A stretch of 64,000 bases of DNA. Origin: Gemmata massiliana (lineage in GTDB: Bacteria; Planctomycetota; Planctomycetia; Gemmatales; Gemmataceae). A model generated the notes under the pieces. That model had not been told where the DNA came from. It searched no databases and worked only from the letters and a program-made list of their open reading frames with translations. Positions within the stretch are counted from its first letter, which is position 1. Every line of letters begins with the position of its first letter. Below, in pieces: positions 5,544 through 9,729 of the stretch. The translations under genes were made by a program, and so were the position numbers. Location of the stretch: assembly GCA_000531095.1 (NCBI GenBank), contig HG799469.1, positions 1 through 64,000 of the forward strand. Reading direction: 5' to 3'.

Positions 5544-7484
5544 CTAATCGTGCCGGCCGTTCGCTGAGCCGAGGTTGTCGTAAGCGTGAGGCGGTCGGTA
5601 GAGCCGAACGCGGTGGCCGTTCACTTCGCTTTCGGCCACGAGTTCACTGCACAGTCCGCGCAGGGCTTTCCACAAAATGGCCGACTGGTAGTGCTCGGCC
5701 TCGGCCGGGATGTGATCGAGTAGCGTGCGGGAACAGACCACCACCAGTCGGTCCTGCACGCGGGAGAACGCGACGTTCGCCCGGTTCAAATCGAGGATGA
5801 ATTCGACACTCGCTTCGATCGCTGTTGGGTCGCTGACCGTTGCCGAGACGATCACAGTGGGGCGCTCGCCTCCCTGGAGGCGCTCGACTGTGTCGATCAC
5901 CCCCACCGGCCCCTCAGTTCCCGACAGTGCGGCCAACCGCGTTGCGAGGAGACTGCGCTGGGCGCGGTGCGGGGTGATGATCGCCACCGAACCGGCCGGA
6001 AGTGGCGGAGCAGCGCTGAGTAATTGCTCCACGATCGCGACTTCGACCGGGTTGCTTCGGCGCGAACCGTCTTCGTCGTGGATTGCCAGGAACAGCCCGA
6101 TGTTCCACTTCCAGACGTGCCCCCAGAACGGGCCGCCGACATCGGGGACCGCGGTCACGGTTCGCGGTAGGCCGGCCAGCTCGATTCGATCTCGACGGTA
6201 CACGCGGGCGATCAGCTCGCGAACCACCGGCGGGAGGCGGAACGTGAGCGTCAGCCCGGACCATCGGGCGCTCGTCGCGGGCACGGTCGGGTTGCCGCCC
6301 TCATCCTGTGCCCCGATGATGCGCCGAACAGCATCGTATGCACTGGCGAACGGTTGGTAGAGCACCATCGGGGGGCGGTCTTCGGCTTCCCAATCGTGGG
6401 CCGTGATCGGGGCCAGTTGTCGGTGGTCGCCGGCCAGCAGAATTCGGCCGTTCGAGGGTACAAGTGTTGCGAGCGCCAGGAAGTGCGGAAACACCATCAT
6501 GGACGCTTCGTCCACGACCAGGAGGGCCGCACCGAGTCCGGCCCCGCCGTTGAATGTCTTGAGTTTCTCGACCGCGGAGGCGAGTTTGAGCAATCCCGCC
6601 GTTGTTCCGCCGATCACCAGAACTGCACCTGTCGTGAGTTCGGTGAGTTTCTTTTTCACACCGAGTATGGCCGCAGGCAGGTTCTCGACCGAACCACCAA
6701 CGACGTGTTGTGTCGGGTCGTTCGTGTGAACCTTGACCAGTTTAATTGGCGGAACTCGCCGGCCGTTTGCTGCAGCATGTTGGGTGAACGCTTCACGGTA
6801 CCGGTCGATGCGCTCCAGCAAGTTATCGAGCGCGGTGTGCGTGTGTGCTGCGAGGAGCACGATGTCGCCCGCGCGCCCGCCAGCGAGCACCCGAAGCAGA
6901 ACAGACAGGGCCGTGGTCGTGGTCTTCCCGGTGCCCGGTGGTCCCTGGATCAACTGGACCCGCGTATTCAGTCCTTCGACCGCCGCTCGTGCCTGGTCCG
7001 GCGAGGCCGGGTAGATGTTCGCGGGCGGGAGCAGGAACGAATCCACCAACTGCTGTAGGCTACTGACTTCCGTGGTGGGGAGGGGAGTAACTGCGGGCGG
7101 CCGTGGATCGACTGGGTCGAACCATGCGTAAACGTGGCTCGGCTGCTGGAGCCGGTCGTCCACGCGCCCGGCGACGTAGTCCGATACGCTCTCGTCCAGC
7201 GTCGCGTAGCCACGCTCGAACAGCATTTCCGCTTTTCGGCTCGCGCCGCTCGACAGCCGGTACCGGTCCTCCTCGGCGTACATGGCGTCCAGAGTCACGC
7301 GACCGGTCGGCCAATCGATCTCCCGCACCACACACGTGCGCCCCACGGCCGCGGTCAACTGCCCCACCGTCTGGCCCTGCTTCGGGTCACCGTTCCACGG
7401 TGACAGACGAGCGAACGAACCGGGACCGAACCGGCACCGGGCTTCCAGATCGGTCAGCGTTAACCCGCCGAACGCGAACAGTTT
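5544..7484 (-). CDS. SF1 helicase part of a Dna2-like nuclease-helicase (second frame)
   Basis: C-terminal, roughly 646-residue helicase module of the Upf1/Dna2-like SF1 group (AAA_11/AAA_12). The visible motifs are Walker A GPPGTGKTTTTALSVLL; Walker B LLVVDEASMM; motif III ILLAGDHRQLAPI; a motif IV-like TLTFRLPPVVRELI; motif V near DTVERLQGGERPTVIVSA; and motif VI NRANVAFSRVQDRLVVV. The module begins in the second frame at about KLFAFGGLTLTDLEARC, just where the nuclease frame stops making sense. No convincing start codon with a ribosome site lies at the junction, so it is probably one polypeptide with the upstream nuclease frame, joined by a +1 shift, or a broken gene. The same frame stays open further upstream to 8,054, but that stretch is a shadow of the nuclease frame. 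Likely role: processing DNA flaps, ends or branched DNA. Confidence 0.85.
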   Translation of the reverse strand, partial: KLFAFGGLTLTDLEARCRFGPGSFARLSPWNGDPKQGQTVGQLTAAVGRTCVVREIDWPTGRVTLDAMYAEEDRYRLSSGASRKAEMLFERGYATLDESVSDYVAGRVDDRLQQPSHVYAWFDPVDPRPPAVTPLPTTEVSSLQQLVDSFLLPPANIYPASPDQARAAVEGLNTRVQLIQGPPGTGKTTTTALSVLLRVLAGGRAGDIVLLAAHTHTALDNLLERIDRYREAFTQHAAANGRRVPPIKLVKVHTNDPTQHVVGGSVENLPAAILGVKKKLTELTTGAVLVIGGTTAGLLKLASAVEKLKTFNGGAGLGAALLVVDEASMMVFPHFLALATLVPSNGRILLAGDHRQLAPITAHDWEAEDRPPMVLYQPFASAYDAVRRIIGAQDEGGNPTVPATSARWSGLTLTFRLPPVVRELIARVYRRDRIELAGLPRTVTAVPDVGGPFWGHVWKWNIGLFLAIHDEDGSRRSNPVEVAIVEQLLSAAPPLPAGSVAIITPHRAQRSLLATRLAALSGTEGPVGVIDTVERLQGGERPTVIVSATVSDPTAIEASVEFILDLNRANVAFSRVQDRLVVVCSRTLLDHIPAEAEHYQSAILWKALRGLCSELVAESEVNGHRVRLYRPPHAYDNLGSANGRHD

Positions 7485-9729
7485 CGATCGACCCGGTGAT
7501 CGTGCTTTTGTCCGCACCGACTTTGACCTGTCGCAACGGGAGTGTGCGCCCGGCCGGTACGCGGGCGATCGGCGGAAGTAAGTGCGCAGCGACCCAATCG
7601 GACCTGCGGACGTGTTGGTCCAGCCGGAGGAAATCGGTCGCGGCGCGGGCCACGCCGTCTCGTCCGAGGCGAAATACGGGTAGCTCGTTGGCGGCCAACG
7701 ATGCTTTCTCGACGCCGGAATTCTTCGGGCTGATCCCTTCCTCGACCCAACGCAGTGCGTGGACGCGCGCCCGGAGATACTGGGTGAGCAATCCGGGTGT
7801 TCCGGCACGTGCGTAGGCCGCGAGTGATTCGCGCACGCGATCATCGTTCGGATCGACTTTCGGCAGCGTACCCCACGCGGCGTGCCAGTACGGGGCCGGG
7901 AGCGCATCGGAGAACCGGCTGCGCACCTCGAACACGTGCCCCGCCGCGCCTTCGTCTGGTGCCCACGAACCGTCCGGTTCGACTGCGAGACGAATCGCGA
8001 AGTCGAAGATGCCCTGGGCGAACACGTGCGAGAGATCATGTTCGTTCCCGTCAACGAGACGGGTCCAGTGGTACCGCCGGCCCGCCCACTCCAGAGATGT
8101 GACGACGCCGAGTCCGCGCCCGGTCCAACCGAGGGCGAAGCGTCGATCCACTTCTTCCTGCACGGCCGAGTACATCAACTGTTCCAATCCCTCCCGGCAC
8201 CCGAACAGTTGGCGAATCGGGCCTAGCAACTCGGGACCGGCCCGACTGCACCCTTCGAGAAGTTGGCGCACTTCGGAACGGGACCAGACGTAGAAGTGAA
8301 CCGGGGCCGACGCGACTCCGAGTTCCTCGGCAACGAGGCGCACCAATCGGTCGAAGAATCTGCGGATCAACTCGCCCTCGGCGGCGGTATCCGCGGGGTA
8401 GTTGGTGCCCGACCACGGGACCGCTTGGTATTCGATGATTTCGCGCCCGTCGGGGAGCGGGCGGTCCTCGAATGTCGGTCGACTACTCGCGTCTTTTTTG
8501 ACTTCAAACCGCTCCCGCACCTCGGGCACGGCGCGGCCCTCAGTGAAAGATGTTTCGATGCGTCCGGCGCTGCGAGTGACGTGCGCCGACAGCGCCCCGA
8601 TGCGGTTCTCGGTGTAGTCGTAATCGATCGCGAGATAGATCCGGAGGAGCCGGTTCCCGTTCACTTCGTGTGGCGGTAAGTGCCCGACACCCGTATTCGG
8701 GATCGGCTCGACACCCGACCCTACGACGGTGCGCGTTTTGGGGAGCGTGAACAATCGCGCGCGGGCGCGGAGCCGGAGCCGATCGAGGTTCTCGCTGAAC
8801 CCGGGATCGCGTGCGAGTGATTCGATTTTGGGATCGAATAGAGGTGGGTTGGCCACCTGATCGAGCGTCTCCAAGCCGGCCGTGCGGAGCAGCCGCGTCG
8901 TGACCGGGTCCAGCCCGAGGAGTTCCGGGCGCCGTAAGCGCGCACTTTCGGTCAGGCAGTGTGGCGCGAACGAGCACCCGTCACATTTCGAGTCGATCTG
9001 GAACCCGATCTCCGCGAGCGGACGCGCGGCGGCAGAGTCTAGACGCCCTTCCGGTGCGAGGAGCTGAGTGAGATCAGCTTCTTCGTGCGTCAAATCGAGC
9101 GGCGCCAGCGCGAGAATCGACTGGTTCGTGTTTCGGTCGGCGTCAATGCGCGCCACAACGCATTCGATGGTCGTTCGATCGAAACTGTGGGCGCCGACGG
9201 GAACGGACTGGTCGCCGATGATGTCGCGGAGCAGCATCCGGTACGCGGCGACCTGGATGCGGTGATAGGTACGGTCCCGGCGGCTCGCTTTGCACTCGAC
9301 CAGCCACACGCGCGGCGCGCCATCGATCCAGCGGAGCAGAACGAAGTCGATAATGCCGTAGAGTCGGAACGCGCCCATGTTGCCGCCGACCGCGACTTGC
9401 CGGGCGTACCCCTGCGTTCCGGGCTGGAGGCGCGCGAAGACGCCCGCGAGTGCGTCCCACGTGACTTCGTCCCGCTTACCTTTGGGCAGCGGCGCGGCGA
9501 GGTTCTGGAACCCGGATTCGACCAACTCGATTTCCCAGCGGTCCTCGCGCCGGCGGCCCATTTCGGCGAGAACCGGGTCGATGCTGTCCCGGACGCGCTC
9601 GAAAAACGGGAGCGGGCCGACTTCACGCGCGGAGTGAACGGTGAGGTGGAACCGGCGGTCGCAGGAGTGGTGGCGGACGTACTCCCCGAGGTCGGTAGCG
9701 GTGATGTTGATGCGGGGGCGCGGACTCAA
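7387..9729 (-). CDS. Cas4/RecB-like Fe-S nuclease part of a Dna2-like nuclease-helicase (first frame)
   Basis: N-terminal part of a TM0106-type/Dna2-like protein. PD-(D/E)XK residues are visible as D128 (YGIIDFVLLR), E145 and K147 (WLVECKASR), with Q159 and Y163 in QVAAYRMLL. Four cysteines fit a Cas4/AddB-like 4Fe-4S site: C23 (HHSCDRRFHL), C249, C252 and C258 (CDGCSFAPHC). Helix-hairpin-helix-like text follows (residues 270-325). Then comes an RNase H-like region starting LLRIYLAIDYDY near 362 that keeps only part of the DEDD pattern. Starts at TTG with GAGG 8 bp upstream. Meaningful sequence ends near codon 748 (position about 7,485); beyond that the frame is a shadow until a stop at 7,387. 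The two frames together would give about 1,394 residues. Gene order on the strand: VOC protein, then this gene. Confidence 0.8.
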   Translation of the reverse strand: MSPRPRINITATDLGEYVRHHSCDRRFHLTVHSAREVGPLPFFERVRDSIDPVLAEMGRRREDRWEIELVESGFQNLAAPLPKGKRDEVTWDALAGVFARLQPGTQGYARQVAVGGNMGAFRLYGIIDFVLLRWIDGAPRVWLVECKASRRDRTYHRIQVAAYRMLLRDIIGDQSVPVGAHSFDRTTIECVVARIDADRNTNQSILALAPLDLTHEEADLTQLLAPEGRLDSAAARPLAEIGFQIDSKCDGCSFAPHCLTESARLRRPELLGLDPVTTRLLRTAGLETLDQVANPPLFDPKIESLARDPGFSENLDRLRLRARARLFTLPKTRTVVGSGVEPIPNTGVGHLPPHEVNGNRLLRIYLAIDYDYTENRIGALSAHVTRSAGRIETSFTEGRAVPEVRERFEVKKDASSRPTFEDRPLPDGREIIEYQAVPWSGTNYPADTAAEGELIRRFFDRLVRLVAEELGVASAPVHFYVWSRSEVRQLLEGCSRAGPELLGPIRQLFGCREGLEQLMYSAVQEEVDRRFALGWTGRGLGVVTSLEWAGRRYHWTRLVDGNEHDLSHVFAQGIFDFAIRLAVEPDGSWAPDEGAAGHVFEVRSRFSDALPAPYWHAAWGTLPKVDPNDDRVRESLAAYARAGTPGLLTQYLRARVHALRWVEEGISPKNSGVEKASLAANELPVFRLGRDGVARAATDFLRLDQHVRRSDWVAAHLLPPIARVPAGRTLPLRQVKVGADKSTITGSIETVRVRRVNADRSGSPVPVRSRFVRSSVTVER

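Follow-up and report, generated by a model that had tools for sequence, protein, structure and literature searches.

The window, that is, the whole 64,000-nucleotide stretch of Gemmata massiliana DNA that was analysed, carries two long overlapping frames on its minus strand from 9729 to 5544, a position range that matches the one given in an earlier reading made without database searches (the sequence-only reading), whose coordinates, strand and frames we could confirm by reading the ORFs directly. Frame A (7387..9729, minus) opens with a TTG, at the same leucine/TTG position as in homologues, and encodes 780 aa comprising an Fe-S RecB-like (PD-(D/E)XK) nuclease and a central region; its meaningful sequence stops at approximately 7485 and is followed by some 33 out-of-frame codons, which we regard as noise, up to the stop. 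Frame B is open from 8174 to 5544 and becomes meaningful from approximately 7484, this portion (5544..7484, minus) encoding an SF1B helicase (AAA_11/AAA_12) with complete motifs, as identified by domain search and tblastn. In the window genome the two open frames measure 876 and 790 codons. The neighbouring genes, named from their translations, are prmC, a VOC protein and typA, and no methyltransferase adjoins.

The domain content of the two frames is well defined. PDDEXK_1 (PF12705) scores above the cut-off in frame A, where four Fe-S cysteines (C23, C249, C252, C258) and the nuclease residues D128, E145/K147 and Q159/Y163 are invariant across four aligned homologues. By alignment and reading, the first of these cysteines lies in HHSCDRRF (9649-9672, minus) and the other three in CDGCSFAPHC (8956..8985, minus), while domain search and alignment place the nuclease core GIID...VECK, followed by QVAAYR, at 9280..9357 (minus). 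Frame B gives AAA_11 and AAA_12 above the cut-off, and all motifs can be read on the minus strand: motif I (Walker A), GPPGTGKTTT, at 6915..6944, motif II, LLVVDEAS, at 6501..6524, and motifs V and VI (GVIDTVERLQGGERPTVIVSAT ... NVAFSRVQDRLVVV) at 5736..5903, with motif VI at 5777-5736. The proposal that an N-terminal Fe-S RecB-like nuclease occupies one frame and a helicase with complete SF1 motifs the next is thus borne out. Among PDB structures the helicase is closest to IGHMBP2/SMUBP-2 (4b3f, E 1.9e-14), then to DNA2 (5eaw, E 1.9e-10) and UPF1. A PDB profile search with the nuclease and central part returned no match, the NCBIfam search gave no family above cut-off, and modelling the structure of the first 747 residues gave a mean pLDDT of 44, too poor for use.

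The change of frame was traced by DNA alignment to a minus-strand AAA (plus-strand TTT, 7482-7484), one A of which is surplus relative to every orthologue; skipping a single base here joins frames A and B, just as the sequence-only reading had proposed for a switch near 7,485. The gene is unbroken in seven related genomes, in a single frame of approximately 1,375-1,413 codons from its start: six relatives of the same genus keep the full gene open for 1384-1444 codons from stop to stop, and it is also intact in a MAG listed under a separate name (L087). The check suggested earlier, alignment with full-length homologues, gives a clear outcome, with nuclease and helicase fused in one frame in the orthologues, and one base fewer at the junction in all seven DNA alignments (G008, G012, G005, G013, G002, G009 and a paralogue in G012 with 65% identity). 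Orthologues share 78-97% identity with the frame B helicase by tblastn. The nearest relative, G008, which is 97% identical to the window in the amino acids of the helicase part and 94% identical in DNA, reads GAAC where the window reads GAAAC, and this difference (window GTCGATCGAAACTGTTC vs. G008 GGCGATCG-AACTGTTC) is the only one that changes the frame across the 4.16 kb of aligned gene.

When the substitutions between the window and G008 are counted by codon position in a single continuous frame, positions 1, 2 and 3 receive 19, 3 and 115 changes before the junction and 17, 6 and 98 after it. Since third codon positions take most of the changes on either side within one continuous frame, both halves are coding and belong together; frames A and B are parts of a single gene, each truly coding and neither open by chance.

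A natural arrangement of two genes, in which a nuclease protein is made beside a separately initiated helicase, might be suggested by the G012 paralogue, which likewise appears as two ORFs. That paralogue is split at a different place, however, and its two-ORF appearance is caused by an 88-bp repeat inserted at residue ~403. At the window junction no Shine-Dalgarno-like sequence was found ahead of the start codons, which agrees with the earlier remark that the helicase has no start of its own with a ribosome site, and the first starts past the junction (GTG at 7367 onward) already lie inside conserved sequence. The orthologues are fused rather than natively two genes with a clear second start, and we consider separate initiation scarcely credible. 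The repeat that interrupts the paralogue is itself a MITE-like element (L037, ~8150-8260; G012:C1:1758158-1758245) with perfect 16-bp terminal inverted repeats (GTGACTGTCCCATATG), present in 26 copies in G012 and in none in G000 (the window genome), G008 or G002.

Programmed +1 ribosomal frameshifting, or transcriptional slippage, would instead yield a fusion protein from the sequence as it stands. Such a shift is possible in principle, as frame A runs 33 codons beyond the junction, and selection acts on both halves. It is present in no orthologue, however, so that there is nothing conserved for selection to maintain; every orthologue is read through in a single frame, and no conserved frame change is to be found among them. 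The site itself, ATC GAA ACT G(TT), lacks slippery or stimulatory features: it contains neither an A-site stop codon nor an X XXY YYZ motif nor a long run of A or T, and by direct reading the GAA tRNA, were it to slip onto AAA in the P site, would be mismatched. The sequence-only reading had listed a programmed +1 frameshift among its three options, and this one can be set aside as very improbable.

Selection on the two halves bears on whether the break is old. Between the window genome and its nearest relative, dN/dS is 0.05 for the nuclease part and 0.08 for the helicase part, and with changes polarised by G012 as outgroup, the helicase part shows 2 nonsynonymous to 31 synonymous unambiguous changes on the window lineage compared with 4 to 38 on that of the sister G008. 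Purifying selection is equally strong on the two halves, and the window lineage shows no decay. An apparent excess of position 1 and 2 changes in the helicase half of the window lineage (16/51 vs. 9/52 in raw counts) vanished when only unambiguous codon changes were counted, and an old pseudogene is ruled out, as the window lineage carries no excess of nonsynonymous changes. A helicase left out of frame should soon decay, and since no decay is seen, the insertion is either extremely recent in this lineage or absent from the organism.

The first of these alternatives, a real and very recent one-base insertion, would inactivate the gene and leave a truncated product of ~780 aa, comprising the nuclease and central region but no helicase. 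Real frameshifts do occur, and the patchy distribution of the gene in the genus, where 7 of the 19 genomes (the window genome counted) have a full orthologue and a fragment also occurs, indicates that it is dispensable. Natural loss of such genes is likewise indicated by the G012 paralogue (65% identity), which a multicopy 88-bp element has disrupted, and because the family is demonstrably broken for real in this case, we retain a real mutation as an unlikely explanation that still deserves appreciable weight. Against it, the stranded helicase half bears no trace of relaxed selection, and other long conserved genes, including a frame of 2302 codons, show the same type of break only in the window assembly. 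A variant in which the strain truly carries the insertion and still obtains some full-length enzyme from low-level slippage on the new AAA, representing a fresh loss or a phase-variable state, seems to us very doubtful.

The first 187 kb of contig C8, which carries this gene, align with G008 and were compared gene by gene. Over 130 kb, one-base run-length breaks confined to the window assembly affect 4 of ~102 genes compared, this gene included. At C8:184962 a change of A to AA splits a frame of ~2302 codons (G000:C8:181404-188307; L050/L051) that six relatives keep intact at 2165-2334 codons; at ~65.5 kb (~65,540) a C run is longer by one, leaving 455 codons vs. 569-666; and at ~78.8 kb (~78,800; L045) one base is lost, leaving 315 codons vs. 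357-397. No clear mid-gene break unique to the sister genome G008 was found in the same gene comparison, although the resulting asymmetry of 4 to 0 is small (sign test 0.0625). Many further frame breaks from an automatic survey were dismissed because they precede the true start, fall in shadow ORFs or adjoin an N gap at 84.7 kb. The gap in question, of 5 bases (84719-84723), is surrounded by a cluster of small indels (G000:C8:84569-84912; L046) that reflects a local misassembly.

The 454 platform is known for run-length errors, which concentrate in longer runs, and the short run at our junction (2 to 3 A) differs in this respect and counts against a sequencing error. In other respects the comparison with published 454 homopolymer artefacts is close: a run-length change of one base, a gene otherwise intact, several cases per assembly and a similar frequency (PMC3277595). 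In a direct comparison such errors affect 2.1-2.8% of genes, with A and T runs favoured, and the frequency of breaks on the window contig is near this published rate (PMC3277595). The window assembly consists of 22 contigs and 9,269,192 bases with N gaps, and has a contig GC of 63.99%, while the published draft of Gemmata massiliana was obtained by 454 Titanium sequencing and Newbler assembly at 22.4x and comprises 22 scaffolds, 9.249 Mb and 64.07% GC (PMC4672568). These matching statistics are suggestive, though not proof, that the two are the same assembly; against the match stand the lengths of 9.269 vs. 9.249 Mb and the 6 N-gaps in 452 kb, compared with the ~19 implied by 417 contigs in 22 scaffolds.

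The surplus A is thus probably a sequencing error. According to this explanation, a short A run was miscalled, with AA read as AAA in a run-length error of the 454 type, which would create a false frame break, and the base would be absent from the cell; the organism would then carry one intact gene of ~1,395 codons for a bacterial DNA2-like (Bad-type) Fe-S nuclease/SF1B helicase. An error is favoured because the extra A, a run-length difference of a single base (AA to AAA), is unique to the window assembly, because both halves are under continuing selection and because similar breaks occur elsewhere on the contig. Of the options named by the sequence-only reading, sequencing error and inactivating mutation therefore both stand, with the evidence in favour of the error. 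Recognising this averts the annotation of a false programmed frameshift or a false pseudogene, and frame breaks elsewhere in the window assembly, at approximately 4 per 100 genes compared, deserve suspicion.

On its sequence features the intact gene is assigned to the bacterial DNA2-like (Bad-type) helicase-nucleases, having four Fe-S cysteines that flank a RecB-type nuclease core (iron staple) and a C-terminal SF1B helicase; nuclease and helicase share one polypeptide in all intact orthologues, and would do so in the window only were the extra A a sequencing error. Its closest known counterpart is Bad, the DNA2-like helicase-nuclease of Geobacillus stearothermophilus, which is 1245 aa long compared with ~1395 for the window gene (PMC7430649). 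Compared by description, both have a RecB-type nuclease of the iron-staple type, with its four cysteines, at the N-terminus, then a long central region with no assigned fold and, at the C-terminus, an SF1B helicase, and both are sporadically distributed (PMC7430649). The label "Dna2-like" used in the sequence-only reading holds as a description of this architecture: eukaryotic DNA2 has the same nuclease-helicase order and its PDB chains (5eaw) are matched by the helicase, although the best PDB match is IGHMBP2/SMUBP-2, the central region spans ~500 residues, and the nuclease and central parts are without a PDB match. By analogy with its family, the enzyme would load onto single-stranded DNA, translocate in the 5'-3' direction and cleave (PMC7430649), and it may serve in restriction-like defence or DNA repair.

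Genomic context separates the window gene from Bad, which adjoins a methyltransferase in Geobacillus: the window gene, whose copy is also frame-broken, and its direct orthologues lie among other genes with no methyltransferase beside them. More distant Gemmata relatives do resemble Bad in this respect, adjoining a Type III methyltransferase gene in one case (L041; G009:C42) and a Type I gene in another (L042; G006:C21), and relatives paired with methyltransferases could possibly form restriction or defence modules. It is this occurrence of a Bad-type nuclease-helicase in Gemmata, with distant relatives beside restriction-type methyltransferases, that makes the intact family noteworthy. The 65% G012 paralogue (L037; G012:C1) adjoins a cytosine (C5) methyltransferase and an HKD-Snf2 helicase.
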